A stretch of DNA of 39,939 bases from a virus, in IMG/VR virus record IMGVR_UViG_3300010885_003709, positions 1 through 39,939 of that record; one strand, 5' to 3'. The position numbers and the translations under genes were made by a program. The notes beneath the pieces are model-generated. The model saw only the letters and a program-made list of their open reading frames with translations, was not told where the DNA came from and searched no databases. Position 1 is the stretch's first letter. Each line of letters begins with the position of its first letter. Below, piece after piece: positions 597-17,643 of this stretch.

Positions 597-2615
597 ATGA
601 CAGGTAAATTTGATCCAAAGTGTACGCTAAACATCCTTGAGATGGCTGACATGCACAAGCTTGTTGATGACATTGTAAAGAATGGTCAGCTAACACAAGC
701 AGAAGCAAATGCTTTGAAGAGTGAAATGACAGGACGTATCATCAAAGAAGGAGCAAGCTTTAAGAAGATACGAGCAATGACTGCTGAGTATGTAGTCAAT
801 GGCTACCTCACTGCTCCAACAAACATATCAACCAACACAATGTCTGGTGCTGGTCAGGTTCTTCTCAGTCCATTACTGAGGGAAATGGAAGCCATCGTAG
901 GTAAAGTGACAGCTAACAAAGCTGACCAACGTAAGATGGGTGAAGGCCTTGTTATGCTCAAAGGAATTCTTCAAGGATTTGCTGAAGGCATGGACTTTGC
1001 TAAGGCTGGTTGGATTACAGGTAAGCCACTCGACTTGAAGATTGATGCTGCTTCCTTTGGCATGACAGCCAAAGAGTTTAGAGATGCACAAGTTAAATAT
1101 GGCTTCGATGACATTAAGGCTGAAGCTCTTAAAGAAGTATTGTATGACCAATCTACAAAAGCAATTCCCGGTACAATAGGTAAGGTGTTAAGAGTTGGCT
1201 CTAAGGCTGGTGTAGCTATTGATGAATTCTGGAAAGCCACTCTGCGTAGAATGGAATTCAATGCTAAAGCATACAGAGATGCTGACTTGTTAGCTGCAAA
1301 GTTTGGTGTGTCCAAAGAAGAAGCTTATGCCAAAGCAGTGGAACAACGTATGTCTCCAGACAACTGGAATGAACGCATGCGTGAAACATTTGGTGTCAAA
1401 GGAACTACAGAGATTGCAGACTTTGCTAAAGAGAAAGTGTTCCAAGAAAACCTTGGTGGCCTTGCTAGAACAGTGCAAGAAATTAGAGCTAAGAATCCCC
1501 TTGTTGGTGCTTTGATTATTCCCTTTGTTAAAACACCATACAACATTCTTAAAGAAGGTGCAGCATACATGCCCGGCATTGGAGCTTTAGCACGTAAGGA
1601 AATTATTGATCCGTTAATCGGTAAAGGAACAGGGAAGTTTGATTGGGCATTGGCACAACCAGTGCATAGAGAACGTCTGCTTGCTAAGCAAATGTTTGGC
1701 CTTGCTGCCACTCTATATGTCAATGCTTTGGTTGAACAAGGAGCTGTAACAGGCTCAAGTCCTAAAGGTGATCTGCCTAAGTTCTCTGTGAAGATTGGAG
1801 ATTCTTGGTATAGCTATGCTCGTATTGAGCCTATAGCCACTATGTTTGGTTTGGTTGCTGATATGCACCAGACATACAATGATTATAAGAAAGACCCTAA
1901 GTGGAATAAGAAGACAGCAGATCAAATTGCAGGACACTTTGCTGAAGCCACTGCACAAAGTCTTGCTGATAACATATTGAACAAGTCTTTTGTTGAAGGC
2001 ATTGCTAAGGTTGCTTCTGCTGCCTTGAATCCAGAGAGATATGGTAATGCTTTCGTGGAGGCCTATACAACTACAGCTATTCCTGCTGGTGTTGCTGCTG
2101 TTGCACGAGGCTTTGACCCATATGAGAGACAAGTGGTTGGCTTCATTGATAAACTAAAAGGAAGAATTCCCGGCCTTAGAGAAACACTGCCTGTACGTTA
2201 TGACAATATGGGACAACCCATTCAGACAAGCATTAGTGAGGTGCTTGCTGGTGTCAAAGTGTTTACACCTACAGAACTTCAGAAGCGTTTGAATGAAGTG
2301 GATGTAGACATCAAAGGCATAGGTAAGAAGGTTGGTAGAGTGGAACTAACAGCAGAACAATTGTCACGTTATGGACAACTGGCTGGAGGCTACTTCTCTG
2401 CTGGTTTGGAGAAGGGCATGAACAGTCCACAATGGCAGAGGCTTGATCCATTCCAACAAGAACTGTATGTTAAAACAATCTTGGAGAAGAGCAGAGGAGC
2501 TGCTGCAAAGCAATTAACAGGTGAGCTGTACAAGACAGACCCTAAGTTTGCTGCTGATTTCTATAATGAATATCTGATAAGCAAAGGCTTACAGGGAAGA
2601 ATGGAACTTAGGTAA
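597..2615 (+). CDS. Large internal virion / DNA-ejection protein (putative)
   Basis: 672 residues, the last gene of the rightward block. I chose ATG 597 because AAGGA lies 4 nt upstream (588-592). A TTG at 579 is in frame but has no ribosome site. The protein is rich in Ala, Gly and Lys, mostly helical, with a hydrophobic stretch near residues 360-385 (MFGLAATLYVNALVEQG). The segment with FVKTPYNILKEGAAYMPGIG and GFDPYERQVVGF resembles the large internal or polyvalent virion proteins common in podoviruses, but no enzyme motif is evident. The stop codon TAA falls inside a palindrome (2611-2628). The upstream gene ends at 588, so the pair probably forms a translationally coupled ejection-protein unit. 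The function is inferred from position and composition. Confidence 0.75.
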   Translation: MTGKFDPKCTLNILEMADMHKLVDDIVKNGQLTQAEANALKSEMTGRIIKEGASFKKIRAMTAEYVVNGYLTAPTNISTNTMSGAGQVLLSPLLREMEAIVGKVTANKADQRKMGEGLVMLKGILQGFAEGMDFAKAGWITGKPLDLKIDAASFGMTAKEFRDAQVKYGFDDIKAEALKEVLYDQSTKAIPGTIGKVLRVGSKAGVAIDEFWKATLRRMEFNAKAYRDADLLAAKFGVSKEEAYAKAVEQRMSPDNWNERMRETFGVKGTTEIADFAKEKVFQENLGGLARTVQEIRAKNPLVGALIIPFVKTPYNILKEGAAYMPGIGALARKEIIDPLIGKGTGKFDWALAQPVHRERLLAKQMFGLAATLYVNALVEQGAVTGSSPKGDLPKFSVKIGDSWYSYARIEPIATMFGLVADMHQTYNDYKKDPKWNKKTADQIAGHFAEATAQSLADNILNKSFVEGIAKVASAALNPERYGNAFVEAYTTTAIPAGVAAVARGFDPYERQVVGFIDKLKGRIPGLRETLPVRYDNMGQPIQTSISEVLAGVKVFTPTELQKRLNEVDVDIKGIGKKVGRVELTAEQLSRYGQLAGGYFSAGLEKGMNSPQWQRLDPFQQELYVKTILEKSRGAAAKQLTGELYKTDPKFAADFYNEYLISKGLQGRMELR

Positions 2616-2628
2616 CTTCCTAGTTACC
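2611..2628. repeat. Palindrome GGTAACT-N4-AGTTACC at gene end
   Basis: GGTAACTTCCTAGTTACC has perfect 7-bp arms around TTCC-type centre bases. The TAA stop of the preceding gene lies in the left arm. It belongs to the genome-wide family described in the findings, and the copy at 13583-13600 is placed the same way at the 3' end of a gene. Confidence 0.85.
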
Positions 2629-7010: not shown

Positions 7011-7431
7011 ATTCTTTCCTCTCTTCTTTCTCTAAAGATGTTTTAACTGAATGGCATGGCTTACATAACACTTGTAGATTTTCTTTCTCACAGAACATCC
7101 TATGTATGTATGTTTCCCAATCAACAAAGCCTGTCTTTGGACTAACAACAGGAAAGATGTGATCAACTTGTACATCAACAGCAACAAAGTGTCTTGAACA
7201 ATGAGCACATGCATAGTGCATTGCCAGTTTATTAGTCTTCTTGTTAGTCTTCCTTCCTACATAAGCAGCCTTCAAAGCTTTAAACTTTGGAGGCCATCTA
7301 CGTGTCGCTGTCCTCAATGCTGAAACAACAAAGCTTCTAAACCTTGCTGCTGTCCACTCTCCATCGTTATACCTTGGTTCTGTACCACTGACAGAGGAGG
7401 TTTGCGAAGCCTTCGACTTCTTGTTCGTCAT
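6958..7431 (-). CDS. HNH endonuclease
   Basis: 157 residues. An HNH nuclease core is clear: a CxxC zinc pair in ACAHCSRHF, the catalytic region VDHIFPV, then ENLQVLCKPCHSVKT with the second Cys pair (CKPCH). The N-terminal 60 residues are very basic (KKSKASQ..., RTATRRWPPKFKALKAAYVGRKTNKKTNK), suitable for DNA binding. It may act in phage DNA processing or recombination; a free-standing homing role is also possible. ATG 7431 has GGAG 9 nt upstream. The gene overlaps the upstream zincin gene by 65 bp and the downstream gene by 53 bp, unusually long overlaps for this genome. Confidence 0.88.
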   Translation of the reverse strand: MTNKKSKASQTSSVSGTEPRYNDGEWTAARFRSFVVSALRTATRRWPPKFKALKAAYVGRKTNKKTNKLAMHYACAHCSRHFVAVDVQVDHIFPVVSPKTGFVDWETYIHRMFCEKENLQVLCKPCHSVKTSLEKEERKEYGKTKEDTNRTGRAKHK

Positions 7432-7654
7432 GGCCTACTTCTCCCATTGTAAATTTAATTGCATGCACAAGCTCGTGAAAGAATGTAGCTCTCGTTGCTT
7501 GTTCGTTCATGTTAGAGCGTATTAATATTTCATACTTACCCGGGTCACATGTACCAAAGTCTTGAAACTCATCGACATAAACTACTGTCCATTCACAACC
7601 TCCAAGCCAGAAACTGGAGGGAACCACATCTGTCTTGGGAATCTTCTTAGCCAT
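7367..7654 (-). CDS. Small HExxH zinc-metalloprotease-like protein
   Basis: 95 residues with FFHELVHAIKF, an HExxH zincin motif at His60-Glu61-His64, followed by acidic residues in GHDEQEVEGFANLL (Glu79 or Glu81 as possible third ligand). This arrangement resembles the ImmA/IrrE-type or small phage zincins, without the N-terminal HTH of repressor-coupled forms. The target is unknown; cleavage of a host regulator is a reasonable guess but only inference. ATG 7654 lies 72 bp inside the end of the exonuclease gene in another frame, and the 3' end overlaps the HNH gene by 65 bp. Confidence 0.72.
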   Translation of the reverse strand: MAKKIPKTDVVPSSFWLGGCEWTVVYVDEFQDFGTCDPGKYEILIRSNMNEQATRATFFHELVHAIKFTMGEVGHDEQEVEGFANLLCQWYRTKV

Positions 7655-8277
7655 AATAAAAGTCCATTCTCTTTAACTCTCTCTTCGCCCAGAGCCTCCA
7701 AGCAAACGGCAAGCATCTCGCTTTCTGTCTTCGCTTTGGCAAGCATCTTTGCTGCTTTTACATCCCCCACTCCCTTGATACCCACAATGTTGTCTGCTCT
7801 GTCTCCCATCAACATCTGCTTGTAAAAGAAGCGGAGTCCTTGTTCTTCTGAGACATAATACTTGTCTTGCTTCACAAAATTGTAATGCCATCCTGCCACC
7901 TGATTGAAGTCTTTATCAACTGAAACAATGATGCAATCATCTTTAAGTTCTGTTGCTCTTATTGCTATGAGGTCATCGGCTTCTTCATCAATGCTCATCT
8001 CTGCACCCCATGCGGTAACTAGGTAGTTACGTAGCATCTCTAAATGTGCTGGCTTCTCTTGTGTTCTATTCCCTTTGTAAGGAGCAGTGACAGCTATGTC
8101 TTTTCTGAAGTTGGTCTTTCCTGTTAAGAAGATTTCCCAGTTCTCAAGACCTAGCTGATTCATAAGGATGTCCTCAAGAAAGTTAGCCATCGTTGTAATG
8201 GCTTGGCTTTCTGAGTCATCCTTACAAGAGAAGGCAATGCGATAGCACATCACATCACCATCTACGAGAGCAATCAT
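7582..8277 (-). CDS. 5'-3' exonuclease, FEN/RNase H type
   Basis: 231 residues of the flap-endonuclease family. Metal-binding acidic motifs are visible: MIALVDGDVMCYR at the N-terminus, DEEADDLIA near residue 97, VSVDKDFNQ near 119, and GDRADNIVGIKGVGDVKAAKML, the helix-hairpin-helix with the last aspartates, near 159-180. It would remove RNA primers and 5' flaps and degrade host DNA, the job done by gp6 in T7. The start overlaps the stop of the ssDNA-binding protein gene (TAATG), and the 3' end runs 72 bp into the zincin gene. A palindrome of the GTAACT/AGTTAC family lies inside the coding region at 8015-8030. Confidence 0.9.
   Translation of the reverse strand: MIALVDGDVMCYRIAFSCKDDSESQAITTMANFLEDILMNQLGLENWEIFLTGKTNFRKDIAVTAPYKGNRTQEKPAHLEMLRNYLVTAWGAEMSIDEEADDLIAIRATELKDDCIIVSVDKDFNQVAGWHYNFVKQDKYYVSEEQGLRFFYKQMLMGDRADNIVGIKGVGDVKAAKMLAKAKTESEMLAVCLEALGEERVKENGLLLWLRRFPRQMWFPPVSGLEVVNGQ
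8015..8030. repeat. Palindrome GTAACT-N4-AGTTAC inside exonuclease gene
   Basis: GTAACTAGGTAGTTAC, with perfect 6-bp arms. It is the only copy of the family that I found wholly within coding sequence, encoding part of RNYLVTAWG. Confidence 0.75.
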
Positions 8278-8771: not shown

Positions 8772-10461
8772 GCCATGTCTTACCTGTACTAAACTCTCCA
8801 GATACAGGGCAACGTAAGCCAAGAAGAATTCCTGCCTCTTGTATGCTCTGCACTGCGAGTTGTCCTACAAGCTCGCCATCTTTTTCTTTTGTTTCAATCT
8901 GCCACTCATCATGGACATTGACACAAAAGCCATACCAAACCTTAGCCTTCCTTAGCTTCTCATCTAACAAGACGAGAGCCTGTTTCATTACGATTGCTCC
9001 AGCTCCTTGCAATAGGCTATTGACCGCTGAGTGTTCGGAACGTACCCAAATCTTCCTACCATCCAGCCCCGGTACAAAGCCCTTGCTTGCATACTTGGAT
9101 ACGTTATTGCGTAGAATCTTGAGTGCGGGAGTATTGGAAAGAAAACTTTCGATAAGCTTCTGTCCATCACGAGCATTACCACCGACAATTTTACCAATCT
9201 TCTCTGCCCCTGCACCATAGAGAAAGGCGTAGATGAACGTCTTCGCTTCATCCCTTGTCGCAAGACCCGCTGCTTTTTGATTCTGCGTGTGTACATCCGT
9301 ACCATCTTTTGAACTTCCTTCACAAACAGTTTTGATATAGGCATCATCCTTCATGTAGTGAGCCAGCATTCGTAGCTCAAGGCCACTGGCATCAGCACCA
9401 ACAAGGACATTGCCTTCATCTACAACCCACAACTCACGACAGTCCTCACCATAGGGGCTTCCCTTGTTGGGAATCTGTGCCATGTTGGGGCTGCTGTGTG
9501 TCATCCTACCAGTGACAGCACCATTGGTTATCACACTGCCATGCACCCTACCTGTGTCCTTCACCTCCTCAAGCCAGCTACCAACCTGAGCCACACGCTT
9601 TTGCAGCATGAGATATTCAGAGAGAAGCTTAGCCTCTGGCAGAGCAATAGAAGCAAGCACTGCCTCATCAACAATCACTGCTCCTTTGTCTGTCTTCTTG
9701 GTAAACTTAACACCAAGATTTTCAAGACGCTCAGCTATTTGTTGTCTACTTCCGGGATTGAAAGGGGTGACAATATCTTTCAGAGGAGCACCTGTTCGTT
9801 TGTTCTTCCTACCTGTCTCAACATGTGGAGGAAACACAAGTTGCATGGTGTTCTCTATGCCAACCATCCTACCTTGAAGCATAGCCAGCAAGCCCATAGC
9901 TTTCTGTACATCAAGTTTGAAGCCATGTTCTTTTTGTTTCTGAATGATGATTGCAACGTCATGCTCAAGCTTAATGCTTTGTTCAGAGAACTGTTCTTTC
10001 TCTAGCATCTTAGTAACCATGTCGTATGTAGCAACCAAAGCAGCTACATCATCCTTACAATATTCAAACAACAACTCAAGGTCTGGATTGTCCCATCGGA
10101 GGTCGGCAGACCTCCCTGTCTTATCTACATATGCTTGGGCATAGTCAGTTTTCTTTTGACCTGTCCTCTCTCCCCACGCTGCTAAGCTGTGGCCTCCTTC
10201 TAAATTTGGATTGTATAGTCTGGATAGTATCAATGTATCTATCGCTTTCTTCGCTGGTATCTTCACTCCCCAACACCTCTTCAACACTCCAGCATCGAAG
10301 CCTATCAAGTTGTGTCCTATCACTTTGTCTGAGTTTTCTATTAAGGGAATGAGTGTAGTTGCTTCTGTGTGACATACATATCCATCTTCGTTATACGTGT
10401 AACAGCACCATATGTGATCATGTGTGCTATTAGTTTCTGTATCTAGAAAGAGCCTCCGCAT
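8758..10461 (-). CDS. Family-A DNA polymerase with 3'-5' exonuclease
   Basis: 567 residues, shorter than T7 gp5. Proofreading exonuclease motifs: LDTET at 6-10, GHNLIGFD at 49-56, YCKDDVAAL at 134-142. Polymerase motif A DASGLELRMLAHY at 357-369, motif B RDEAKTFIYAFLYGAG at 403-418, motif C VNVHDEWQ at 514-521 (His517, Asp518, Glu519). The motif B position equivalent to E. coli Phe762 and T7 Tyr526 is Tyr411. In the PolA family Tyr lowers discrimination against dideoxynucleotides and is common in virulent phages. AAGGA precedes ATG 10461. It works with the primase-helicase and ssDNA-binding protein of the same operon. No separate thioredoxin-binding insert is obvious. Confidence 0.97.
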   Translation of the reverse strand: MRRLFLDTETNSTHDHIWCCYTYNEDGYVCHTEATTLIPLIENSDKVIGHNLIGFDAGVLKRCWGVKIPAKKAIDTLILSRLYNPNLEGGHSLAAWGERTGQKKTDYAQAYVDKTGRSADLRWDNPDLELLFEYCKDDVAALVATYDMVTKMLEKEQFSEQSIKLEHDVAIIIQKQKEHGFKLDVQKAMGLLAMLQGRMVGIENTMQLVFPPHVETGRKNKRTGAPLKDIVTPFNPGSRQQIAERLENLGVKFTKKTDKGAVIVDEAVLASIALPEAKLLSEYLMLQKRVAQVGSWLEEVKDTGRVHGSVITNGAVTGRMTHSSPNMAQIPNKGSPYGEDCRELWVVDEGNVLVGADASGLELRMLAHYMKDDAYIKTVCEGSSKDGTDVHTQNQKAAGLATRDEAKTFIYAFLYGAGAEKIGKIVGGNARDGQKLIESFLSNTPALKILRNNVSKYASKGFVPGLDGRKIWVRSEHSAVNSLLQGAGAIVMKQALVLLDEKLRKAKVWYGFCVNVHDEWQIETKEKDGELVGQLAVQSIQEAGILLGLRCPVSGEFSTGKTWRDTH

Positions 10462-13495: not shown

Positions 13496-13530
13496 TATGT
13501 TTTCCTTATGTATTATTAATTAGAAGCTTT

Positions 13531-13562
13531 CTTATATGTCTTTATTGTACAAGACATATAAG
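13531..13562. repeat. 10-bp inverted repeat around a promoter -10 box
   Basis: Perfect arms CTTATATGTC (13531-13540) and GACATATAAG (13553-13562) flank a 12-nt centre that holds the -10 box of the minus-strand promoter. Each arm contains the 9-mer ACATATAAG in opposite orientation. This is an operator-like geometry; a leader hairpin is excluded because the right arm lies upstream of the expected transcript start. Confidence 0.85.
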
Positions 13563-13572
13563 AAGCTGTCAA
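13544..13572 (-). promoter_or_regulatory. Strong sigma70-type promoter for replication operon
   Basis: Minus strand TTGACA (13567-13572), 17-bp spacer, TACAAT (13544-13549). ACATATAAG follows after exactly 4 nt, as in the promoters at 17435 and 33000. It drives the zinc-ribbon, primase-helicase and downstream replication genes. Confidence 0.88.
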
Positions 13573-13582
13573 TAGCATCATA

Positions 13583-13600
13583 GGTAACTGGCTAGTTACC
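13583..13600. repeat. Palindrome GGTAACT-N4-AGTTACC
   Basis: GGTAACTGGCTAGTTACC overlaps the stop codon of the 147-aa gene ending at 13596 and lies 11 bp upstream of the -35 box of the 13544-13572 promoter. It could be a terminator stem for the upstream genes or a regulator site. Confidence 0.85.
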
Positions 13601-14039
13601 ATGAAGAACTGTAGTAGAAATCATACAACCCGATGTCAGGTATTGACAAGACATTCTCTATGATTGCCTTTGTCTGTATCAAGTCTTCGTAATAACCTTC
13701 ATCATACAAGTCACTACCAAAGAAGAAACCATTGGTAGTTGGTAACAATTCTTTTGCCTTCTGTGAATGAGTTAGCACTTCATTAACTAAAGCAAGAAGC
13801 TTCTCTAAGTCTTTGACAGACACAAGATATTCACCGCAATCATCCACCTCGTGTTGAACATTATCAACAAACCACTTGTGAATATGGTTAGCCTTTCTCC
13901 AGTAGCCAGCCTCATATGAAATTTCTTTGACTCGCATCTCATTAACCTTCAAGTCTTCAAGATGGTCACGCAAAGCTTTGCCCCCGTCACCGAAGTCATA
14001 GATGTACCGCTTAGCGGTCAAGTACATGTCTAGTCCCAT
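13596..14039 (-). CDS. Conserved phage protein of MGLDMYL type, unknown function (147 aa)
   Basis: The start MGLDMYLTAKRYIYDF matches a widespread phage and bacterial family recognisable by its MGLDMYL N-terminus; I know of no function. The body is helical and aromatic-rich with HIHKWFVDNVQHEVDDCGEYLVS and a conserved-looking NGFFFGSDLYDEGYYEDL segment. ATG 14039 is chosen over an upstream frame extension because GGGG lies 7 nt upstream and the 33-aa gene ends just before it. The stop codon is within the palindrome at 13583-13600, and the next gene is separated by a new promoter. Confidence 0.75.
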   Translation of the reverse strand: MGLDMYLTAKRYIYDFGDGGKALRDHLEDLKVNEMRVKEISYEAGYWRKANHIHKWFVDNVQHEVDDCGEYLVSVKDLEKLLALVNEVLTHSQKAKELLPTTNGFFFGSDLYDEGYYEDLIQTKAIIENVLSIPDIGLYDFYYSSSW

Positions 14040-14040
14040 T

Positions 14041-14142
14041 TCATTTCCCCTTTTGTTTAAAGAATCTAATAACACACAAACCAATTATAAACCCAAGAAT
14101 ATACACAAGCAACACACCAAGTGCACTAACACTGTTCCGCAT
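14041..14142 (-). CDS. Tiny single-pass membrane protein (33 aa)
   Basis: Frame MRNSVSALGVLLVYILGFII then GLCVIRFFKQKGK: one hydrophobic helix of about 20 residues with a basic C-terminus, probably anchored in the inner membrane with the tail in the cytoplasm. GGAGG lies exactly 6 nt before ATG 14142, one of the best ribosome sites in the window. It starts within the end of the 126-aa gene, and its stop is next to the ATG of the 147-aa gene. Function unknown; such peptides can be host-membrane effectors. Confidence 0.72.
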   Translation of the reverse strand: MRNSVSALGVLLVYILGFIIGLCVIRFFKQKGK

Positions 14143-15716: not shown

Positions 15717-15962
15717 TCAAATTGCAATTGCTTGCTTCTGCACTGCTAAACGCTTTTTGTCACGATGGACACGAACAACAGCAGAAGGGGAAACTCTAAC
15801 AATTTGTCCACCATGTGCAAGCTTGACGGACACCTTGAAAAACCCACGTTCTACAATTTGACCATTAAACCGCTTTTCTCCGACATAAACTGTCAGAAAA
15901 CGATTGCCATGATTAGCGACAAACTGCTTCGCTACAAAAAAAGCCTTCAAAGAATCAAACAT
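15717..15962 (-). CDS. Unknown basic protein (81 aa)
   Basis: MFDSLKAFFVAKQFVANHGN ... VQKQAIAI. A short N-terminal helix is followed by a beta-rich basic half (YVGEKRFNGQIVERGFFKVSVKLAHGGQIVRVSPSAVVRVHRDKKR), which could be a small RNA- or DNA-binding barrel. AGAGG lies 5 nt before ATG 15962. It is the first gene downstream of the promoter at 16061-16088, so it is an early gene; the palindrome at 15979-15994 lies in its leader. Confidence 0.72.
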   Translation of the reverse strand: MFDSLKAFFVAKQFVANHGNRFLTVYVGEKRFNGQIVERGFFKVSVKLAHGGQIVRVSPSAVVRVHRDKKRLAVQKQAIAI

Positions 15963-15978
15963 AAAAACCTCTTACAAA

Positions 15979-15994
15979 GTTACTTGCTAGTAAC
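15979..15994. repeat. Palindrome GTTACTTGCTAGTAAC (copy a)
   Basis: Identical over 16 bp to the copy at 16685-16700. It lies between the promoter at 16061 and the ATG at 15962, in the untranslated leader of an early leftward gene. Confidence 0.88.
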
Positions 15995-16060
15995 GCTAGC
16001 ACGTTTTCCTACAAAGCGTAGGGAAAAACCTTCTAGGCTTTTCTCTCTGCTCTGAAGCCC

Positions 16061-16088
16061 ATTATAGAGAGTCCGGAGGGTTTGTCAA
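16061..16088 (-). promoter_or_regulatory. Consensus sigma70 promoter, leftward
   Basis: Minus strand TTGACA (16083-16088), 16-bp spacer, TATAAT (16061-16066). The -35 box sits in the loop of an inverted repeat CCGGAGG (16073-16079) / CCTCCGG (16091-16097). Transcription would start near 16054 and reach the 81-aa and GP88-like genes. Confidence 0.85.
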
Positions 16089-16108
16089 GTCCTCCGGTTT
16101 GTCCCTCA

Positions 16109-16666
16109 TTATGCCTTCTCGTTGATTTTGGCCATTGCTTGAAGAATTAATTCACTTGCGATTTTATATCCCTTATCGTAGCATAATTGCTGAATTATCT
16201 CTAAGTTATTCAGCATTTTATCATCTTCGGAGAATGTAATTTCTTCGGTCTCTTCGATTGTCTCTTCGCTGTCCTCTTTCGGTGCTTTGACTACGTTACC
16301 CTCTTCATCAATTGTCTTACTGCCTGATTCTAAGCCCCTTAAATCTTTAACAAGGCTTTGCACTGATTCGTAATTGTCAATAATATTGAAGAGGGTTTGC
16401 CTTGTCTCTGTTTGGCTAGCATGGTCGCATATCTTTTTGAATTCACTTTTGCGAACCTTAGCAGTGTTTGCATTGTATAGCGATTTTGCCTGAGTGCCAT
16501 ATCCCTCAATCATAGCTTCATATTCTGCCTTGTTTTCTACTGTGAAAACCCCGATTGTCTCTTTTAAGGTTTTCAGTAGTTTCCCGTTTACGTTAGCTTG
16601 TTCGCATGCGAATGCCGCTCCCAGTGCTTCGGGTGTTGCCCCTTCGGTTTTCTTTGCTTTGCTCAT
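16109..16666 (-). CDS. First leftward early gene, unknown acidic protein (185 aa)
   Basis: Starts MSKAKKTEGATPEALGAAFA; AAGGAAACGACA precedes ATG 16666. An in-frame ATG at 16783 would add 39 residues but spans the palindrome at 16685-16700 and has no good ribosome site. The protein is helical with a coiled appearance, and a highly acidic stretch near residues 145-165 (EDSEETIEETEEITFSEDDK). No enzymatic motif. As the gene nearest the divergent region it should be transcribed first, so a host-takeover or regulatory role is possible but unproven. By eye its coding sequence is richer in TTCG/CGG words than neighbouring genes, which may hint at separate acquisition. Confidence 0.75.
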   Translation of the reverse strand: MSKAKKTEGATPEALGAAFACEQANVNGKLLKTLKETIGVFTVENKAEYEAMIEGYGTQAKSLYNANTAKVRKSEFKKICDHASQTETRQTLFNIIDNYESVQSLVKDLRGLESGSKTIDEEGNVVKAPKEDSEETIEETEEITFSEDDKMLNNLEIIQQLCYDKGYKIASELILQAMAKINEKA

Positions 16667-16684
16667 TGTCGTTTCCTTGTTTAG

Positions 16685-16700
16685 GTTACTTGCTAGTAAC
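16685..16700. repeat. Palindrome GTTACTTGCTAGTAAC (copy b)
   Basis: Perfect 16-bp match to copy a at 15979-15994. It lies 19 bp before the ATG of the first leftward gene, in its leader. Confidence 0.88.
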
Positions 16701-16724
16701 AACCCCTTGTTGTTACATGCCTTC

Positions 16725-16756
16725 ATTCTAACATTCATTCTAGGTTTTTGTGTCAA
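16725..16756 (-). promoter_or_regulatory. Possible early leftward promoter with dyad around -35
   Basis: Minus strand TTGACA (16751-16756) lies in the spacer of a perfect 8-bp inverted repeat ATTCTAGG (16737-16744) / CCTAGAAT (16761-16768). An extended -10, TGT-TAGAAT (16725-16733), lies downstream, but the spacer of 20 bp is too long for a standard promoter. Position fits the first leftward gene. Confidence 0.45.
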
Positions 16757-16785
16757 TATCCCTAGAATACCTGAGTGACTCATGG

Positions 16786-16803
16786 GGTTACTTGTTAGTA
16801 ACC
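16786..16803. repeat. Palindrome GGTTACTTGTTAGTAACC
   Basis: Perfect 7-bp arms GGTTACT / AGTAACC with a 4-nt centre. It marks the left edge of the gene-free divergent region, 103 bp from copy b. Confidence 0.88.
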
Positions 16804-17434
16804 TTCTTTGCCATTCCCTATATACTATGCAAGTACTGTGCCATGTATACTTTAGTAGTCATGTCGCTAGTACCTTTGTTTGCAGAAATAGTTGGCATGT
16901 ACTACTTTAGGTTTAACATTCTGTAATTGAATACTTAATACTTACAGAATATCTGCACCAATATGGTGCTTTTCTCTTATCATTATTATATATTGCACCA
17001 TCTCTGTGCTTCATGTGCGAGTTTTGCACCTTAATGGGGCATATTGTGTGACAGTAACCCATAGGTGGTATACTAGGGACTTTCCCTGTAACACTTAAGT
17101 TCTAGTTACTAGCTAGTTACCTAGCATTGTAGTACTTTGTGTTGTAGGTGGCTTAAGAGGTTGCCACATTAGTACTCATACCTCTAAAGTTTACATATCC
17201 CCTATCAAAAGGCTCTTTTGTAACACTAAAGCACTACCGGGGAGGGGGACAACTTGAGCCAATATATGCGGAACCCTATAGCATACAAAAAAGGGCTAAA
17301 ATAGGGGGTAATTATCATATACTAAAATGTACATAAGTGTTTGATTTATATAACTAAAAGTATTAATGACCAATGAGTTAGTAAAGGAAATTAGAGTGCC
17401 CAGTCTAAAGAGACATTAAAGCAACAGAAAGAGC
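16804..17434. other. Gene-free divergent control region, candidate replication origin
   Basis: About 630 bp with no supported gene between the leftward early block and the rightward promoter. It holds a perfect 9-bp inverted repeat ATTCTGTAA / TTACAGAAT (16918-16950), a hairpin GCACCA-ATA-TGGTGC followed by TTTTCTC (16955-16969), a half-symmetric GTTACT-AGCT-AGTTAC element (17105-17120), an extended -10 TGG-TATACT (17066-17074) and AT-rich tracts. The tract TACTTTAGTAG and close variants recur (16845, 16898, 17130 areas). Together with divergent transcription this suggests regulation and perhaps an origin; I see no known origin consensus. Confidence 0.5.
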
Positions 17435-17463
17435 TTGACAATTAACATAATCTGTGTTATAAT
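17435..17463 (+). promoter_or_regulatory. Consensus sigma70 promoter for the rightward virion block
   Basis: Perfect TTGACA (17435-17440), 17-bp spacer, perfect TATAAT (17458-17463) with extended TGT. ACATATAAG follows after exactly 4 nt (17468-17476). TAACA-N7-TGTTA forms a weak dyad over the spacer and -10. Confidence 0.92.
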
Positions 17464-17467
17464 AAAT

Positions 17468-17643
17468 ACATATAAGAAATTAAGGAAGCTTATTAAATAA
17501 TTAAATAAGCCTAGACATATAAGTAACTATGTAGTTACTTAGAAGTTAAACAATCTTAGTTGTTTACTTATAAGCTTAACTATTAAAAATAATTCAAACA
17601 TATAAGCTGTACAGAGAGGCATAGAAGCCGCACAGAAGGACTT
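17468..17643 (+). promoter_or_regulatory. Structured 5' leader of the rightward operon
   Basis: About 175 nt of untranslated leader with several potential stem-loops: GCTTATT/AATAAGC (17488-17510), AAGTAACT-ATGT-AGTTACTT (17521-17540), TAAACAA-N6-TTGTTTA (17547-17566) and the palindrome CTTATAAG (17567-17574). The 9-mer ACATATAAG occurs three times (17468, 17515, 17598). GAAGGA precedes the ATG at 17644. This looks like a regulatory leader; the mechanism is unknown. Confidence 0.6.
17521..17540. repeat. Palindrome AAGTAACT-N4-AGTTACTT
   Basis: Perfect 8-bp arms, the longest of the GTAACT/AGTTAC family, overlapping the second ACATATAAG copy in the leader of the rightward operon. Confidence 0.88.

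Follow-up and report, generated by a model that had tools for sequence, protein, structure and literature searches.

Exact copies of a palindromic word in the early region of an uncultured aquatic phage group and their possible role as operators

A single palindromic word, GTWACT-N4-AGTWAC, is dispersed in about ten copies per genome (7-13) through a group of uncultured aquatic phages. It is described here from the window, meaning the whole 39,939-bp stretch of DNA analysed, and from relatives of this phage. The sites are exact, syntenic among relatives and concentrated in the early region, and matches to the 18-bp consensus in IMG/VR are confined to the phage group, for which the palindrome would serve as a signature. 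It is near certain that the motif is real and selected. Judging from the sequences, we lean towards the sites being dyad operators of a phage-encoded dimeric protein, which would exert a stoperator-like control of early transcription.

Eight exact copies were found in the window, compared with 0.02 expected, and none of 100 shuffles of the window reached eight. All eight sites of the original prediction were recovered (Table 1). The outer arms at 2611-2628, 13583-13600, 16786-16803 and 17521-17540 are perfect palindromes, the sites at 15979 and 16685 are the same 16-mer, and the half-symmetric copy is that at 17105, with T-T as its third pair. When two mismatches were allowed, the window gave 11 matches (three added) against 6.1 expected. 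Across nine genomes there were 78 exact copies, while copies with one mismatch (5 against 4.0 expected) or two (49 against 48.8 expected, both under a first-order Markov model) were at background. The motif is therefore all-or-none, being either exact or absent. Repressor operators are seldom so strict, with no degenerate copies alongside, and this counts against our preferred explanation. Moreover, it raises the question of why weakened sites are not tolerated.

In the word, ten bases are fixed, two positions are W and the centre is loose; with its flanks the full consensus is GGTWACTAGCWAGTWACC. A or T vary independently at positions 3 and 14, which pair in 106 of 194 distinct contexts (p = 0.16; the contexts include five from loci outside the group, three in L134 and one each in L146 and L147), and A-A and T-T are common there. 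The two mirror types that had been proposed are consequently one motif. The half-sites are not equivalent: A occupies position 7 in 80% and T position 10 in 45%, and for several classes of site, though not without exceptions, this asymmetry is aligned with early transcription. The word had been said to have no known name, and neither a literature search, whose coverage was without most subscription journals, nor an Rfam scan returned a description or match.

The window carries a 123-bp direct terminal repeat and is therefore a complete or nearly complete phage contig. Its leftward arm (17 to 2.6 kb) encodes RNR, a metallophosphoesterase, thymidylate synthase, HNH, an exonuclease (EXO), DNA polymerase (POL), primase/helicase, GP88 and an L5 gp82-like protein; the rightward arm encodes terminase, portal, capsid, tail and lysis genes. 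Among named phages, pelagiphage HTVC115P has the nearest replication genes (primase 51%), followed by cobavirus SIO1. Model searches of the window and nine related records found no match to integrase or to HTH_3, the HTH family searched genome-wide, in any of the ten, and positive controls gave matches in all 14 genomes. A general scan of the window proteins revealed no recognisable RNA polymerase gene, so transcription is presumably by the host RNA polymerase. Two further features were observed in passing. The HNH-exonuclease interval (7367-7654, minus strand) encodes a 95-aa protein that is weakly metallopeptidase-like (DUF6782, E 2e-5, under Pfam's cut-off), and in one close relative a tRNA-Trp gene lies beside the divergent control region (L057 5827-5900).

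Table 1. Positions of the palindromic sites, the best promoters and the candidate binders in the window.
Feature	Position	Strand	Description
Site A, GTAACTTCCTAGTTAC	2612..2627		Supplies the TAA stop (2613-2615) of the 579-2615 virion gene
Site B	8015..8030		Inside the exonuclease gene (7582-8277), codons CGT AAC TAC CTA GTT AC
Site D	13584..13599		Gene end (13596-14084); 11 bp separate it from the -35 of the primase-operon promoter, which lies downstream
Promoter, sigma-70 type	13544..13572	(-)	11/12 consensus; primase operon
g81	15717..15962	(-)	81-aa basic protein; predicted small beta barrel; second candidate binder
Site E	15979..15994		g81 5' leader, about 17 bp before the start codon, downstream of a promoter
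Promoter, sigma-70 type	16061..16088	(-)	12/12 consensus; upstream of g81
g185	16109..16666	(-)	185-aa all-helical protein; no recognised family; best candidate binder
Site F	16685..16700		g185 5' leader, 18 bp before the start codon; most conserved position
Leader hairpin	16696..16716	(-)	Near the g185 mRNA 5' end; 3' strand contains half of site F
Site G	16787..16802		About 100 bp upstream of site F, across the g185 promoter region
Site H	17105..17120		Non-coding, between divergent transcription units; third pair T-T
Promoter, sigma-70 type	17435..17463	(+)	12/12 consensus; rightward unit
Site I	17523..17538		In the rightward late unit's 5' leader; the -10 box is 60 bp upstream

None of the palindromes overlaps the three best promoters, and for sites E and I the -10 box is some 60 to 70 bp upstream. 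Since sites are found beside or downstream of promoters, at gene ends and in genes, their placement appears to fit interference with elongation better than promoter occlusion. At the gene ends, GGTAAC provides the TAA stop codon, and site A precedes a terminator hairpin at 2635-2658. The distance between sites F and G varies from 93 to 107 bp in relatives, with no clear helical phase by eye. As originally predicted, all sites of the window but one belong to leaders, gene ends or the divergent region, the intragenic exception being 8015-8030. In relatives the palindromes are not restricted to control regions, and copies also occur inside POL, EXO, the portal gene and g185. Separately, two promoters (13528-13549, minus strand, and 17458-17479, plus strand) are 91% alike over the -10 box and first transcribed bases (TAYAATAAAKACATATAAGAAA), and a shared promoter class is possible.

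Relatives were gathered by searches with the primase (49 loci) and the terminase (80 loci). The motif was present in 14 of 20 records searched whole, and a reversed control pattern in none of them. Recurrent positions are the end of the 579-2615 gene by the terminator (site A, with syntenic copies at the g62>IVP junction), the interiors of EXO and POL, the 13596-14084 gene end that immediately precedes the primase-operon promoter (site D, with syntenic copies at the g162>g61 junction), the divergent gap, and three leaders, those of g81, of g185 and of the late unit. This synteny extends across clades about 70-75% identical in protein, so that the conservation of position in related phages on which the original prediction depended is observed. 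More distant members have extra sites at the primase and ThyX gene ends, and elsewhere.

Sites inside genes were inspected at the codon level. In EXO the codons CGT AAC TAY CTA GTW ACY are fixed in the distinct alleles compared from phages with g185, and L037 and L038, which lack that gene, have other codons here. Taken within EXO alone, conservation of the codons is unexceptional, as 20 of 87 windows were conserved as much as the site. The POL site is at corresponding codons in close relatives of the window, as well as in L042 and in L186, and elsewhere in the gene in the clade of G006, G008 and G009. It has been lost from the window, L027, L006/L007 and L019, in which all five codons are changed and the flanks intact. 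At the relatives' POL position the window itself has a different perfect palindrome in single copy, GGAGGTC-N4-GACCTCC (10098-10115), which could be due to chance.

The several copies per genome, and POL alleles that differ over just the five codons of the site, are what might be seen if mobile mini-palindromes were spreading without function, as had also been suggested. We regard this as extremely unlikely: the same positions are occupied across clades, the exact sequence is held in frame inside the EXO and POL genes, and there are no degenerate remnants.

The distribution of sites along the genomes is strongly skewed. Of 65 sites in eight genomes, 61 are in the early region, which totals 129 kb, and the other four are in the late region, which totals 188 kb (binomial p about 1e-19 when each orthologous site is counted). 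Density is very uneven, at 0.47 per kb early vs 0.02 per kb late, and so does not refute the original prediction. This skew bears on a structural role for the palindromes in partition, replication, condensation or packaging of DNA, instead of gene control. The all-or-none exactness would suit such a role, as would a spacing of roughly 2 kb between sites in G010. However, the early concentration argues against it, as does the location of sites next to leaders and gene junctions, and none of the scanned proteins of the window was recognised as the product of a partition gene. A structural role is accordingly rated very unlikely.

Very probably, the palindrome is a site for a protein at the level of DNA. 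It is read in this way, and not as an RNA stem, because its third pair does not pair; the sequences suggest binding by a symmetric protein that would be blind to A-T vs T-A at one step in each half. No covariation that would keep a stem was seen at pairs 3/14, G-U wobble or compensated copies were not above background in nine genomes, and the predicted RNA folds of all 24 g185 leaders place the left half or the centre of the palindrome in another, upstream hairpin. On these grounds an RNA stem formed by the palindrome itself is rejected, and the suggestion of stems at processing sites is disfavoured.

The upstream hairpin is probably a real element, distinct from the palindrome. It is present in some form in 24 of 24 g185 leaders folded, and its stem covaries among relatives (GTAACAAC/GTTGTTAC, GTAACGAC/GTCGTTAC and GTAACGGC/GCTGTTAC). 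Such covarying hairpins beside the site lend something to the broader idea of action at the RNA level, in which the palindromes, as hairpins or exact words, would be recognised by an RNA-binding protein of the phage or cleaved by a ribonuclease. So do the many sites that are in leaders, near Shine-Dalgarno sequences or between genes, and the resemblance of g81 to Sm/Hfq folds (see below). In addition to the broken hairpin of the palindrome and its lack of covarying or compensated pairs, sites G and H are located between divergent promoters, in a stretch with no evident transcript, and we consider action in RNA quite unlikely.

If the sites are bound as DNA, the protein could come from the phage or from its host. 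A scan of IMG/VR with the 18-bp consensus returned 37 stretches, each of which has two or more genes of this phage group. Moreover, L037 and L038 (primase about 69% identical) are without any sites and without g185 and g81. Both results argue against a host-encoded regulator exploited by the phage, even though CtrA sites have reportedly been found in phages of Alphaproteobacteria (PMC9437464). That no recognised regulator is encoded by the phage speaks for the host, as do the outside contigs L134 and L135, which have clustered sites (three and two, respectively) and neither g185 nor g81. On balance a host regulator seems unlikely. Given L134 and L135, another protein may read the same word.

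Within L134 (4032-4317; phage contig G017), three exact sites and a GTTAC-N6-GTAAC variant occur in 380 bp, and the contig also has 14 copies of TGATT-N4-AATCA, another dispersed palindrome system. In L135 (4049-4100) the two exact sites are intergenic and 36 bp apart, and no homologue of the window genes was detected. Single 16-mer matches in further outside contigs (L138-L140, L142, L143, L146 and L147) are probably chance. No palindrome of comparable enrichment replaces the motif in the motif-less G011, G012, G018, G019 and G020, nor in SIO1 or 50 kb of HTVC115P.

Candidate phage-encoded binders were sought from co-occurrence. Five ORFs are present in 9 of 9 genomes with the motif and in none of 12 motif-less records, six of which are partial loci: g185, g81, gp82 and two that are antisense in the primase gene. 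The gp82 protein was excluded as the binder, being present in the motif-less L061 and L064. Every contig encoding g185, down to 47-48% identity, carries the motif (29 of 29, counted per contig as several loci are overlapping pieces of one contig). The g185-positive phages are probably one clade, and the co-occurrence of g185 with the sites therefore amounts to few, perhaps one, independent events.

Among loci with enough upstream sequence, a site ends 6-26 bp before g185 in 43 of 52. The others are three loci of one contig, with a site at 109 bp, and six without a site within 200 bp; two of these six (L014 and L168) have an inserted stretch and a new ORF between site and gene. For g81, a site is within 60 bp upstream in 44 of 51 loci, and this leader site is absent from L028, L042, L185 and L186, which belong to distant clades. 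These leader-site counts favour g185 rather than g81 as the gene that would be autoregulated.

We tentatively name g185 as the protein that could well bind the sites. It has an invariant basic stretch (N67-T68, K70, R72-K78). The predicted structure is of low confidence (pLDDT 69) and has no recognised DNA-binding fold and no fold match of weight, the VIA rows being nearly all to C-terminal helices. No Pfam, PDB or convincing PHROG match was obtained; searches of NCBIfam, PHROGs and Pfam gave weak matches only, the best PHROG being phrog_4648 (E 0.0023), with a weak match in 11 of 18 members. There was likewise no match in INPHARED phage records or in a scan of genome contigs.

The second candidate, g81, is predicted to form a helix and a five-strand small barrel, and may possibly be a phage Sm-like protein. 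It resembles Hfq/Sm in that Hfq chains are matched by its model (Foldseek E 1.3e-3, prob 1.00; VIA Z up to 7.4). On the other side, that model has a pLDDT of 60, and the sequence gives little support: a profile comparison with four Hfq sequences gave a weak match (15%), and there is no Pfam Hfq match. In INPHARED phage records, g81 found one phage only (two records, E 0.4).

Returning to operators of a phage-encoded protein, the part of the original prediction that named a phage regulator is supported by the early-region bias, the co-occurrence with g185, the independence of the W positions and the confinement within IMG/VR. A dimeric protein made by the phage would bind the palindromes with high specificity, and the sites would control the early region, for replication and nucleotide genes, of a phage without integrase. 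We infer that the bound protein would throttle transcription mainly by blocking or pausing the elongating RNA polymerase, also in the leader of its own gene and in that of the late unit, and that this feedback would limit early expression. The binder would be g185, possibly with g81, a step of which we are less confident.

More speculatively, g185 might found a new family of sequence-specific DNA-binding proteins, and the system might be a separately evolved, stoperator-like one in a non-temperate phage. In that case, g185 would silence or meter early genes by stopping the host RNA polymerase inside transcribed regions, including at the in-frame sites in the DNA polymerase and exonuclease genes. 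If true, this would be a first role for an unannotated protein family.

Several known systems can be set beside these sites. The operators of lambda, bound by CI and Cro, are degenerate dyad sites that overlap promoters near the divergent early region. The present sites are also dyads near divergent early promoters, but all copies agree at ten fixed positions and are found next to promoters or within genes. The replication genes are like those of Zobellviridae / Cobavirinae such as SIO1 (primase about 45% identical, with RNR and thymidylate synthase), as is the genome size of about 40 kb; SIO1, however, has no copy of the motif. Cobaviruses are reported to be without an RNA polymerase (PMC6918029).

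The nearest known system appears to be the stoperators of Cluster A mycobacteriophages (L5, Bxb1). They are reported as dispersed repressor sites at which elongation is halted; most are found at a distance from promoters, in short intergenic gaps, and one is upstream of the repressor gene (PMC6550527, PMC9283540). Those of L5 type are asymmetric, 13-14 bp long and bound by a monomeric HTH repressor (PMC6550527), and number 20-30 per genome in temperate phages. Here too there are multiple near-identical, dispersed sites mostly outside promoters, with one upstream of the candidate binder g185. In contrast, the sites are dyads of 16-18 bp and number 7-13 per genome, and no integrase, no HTH_3 match and no recognised fold in the candidate protein were found in the searches above. 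The palindromes would work in a similar way but are not assigned to the stoperator class, because the site is a dyad and neither an integrase nor a homologous repressor was found. Control by dispersed, elongation-blocking sites has been described in temperate mycobacteriophages; if true, a strictly exact dyad form of it in aquatic phages that lack an integrase would mean that such control has arisen more than once, and outside lysogeny.
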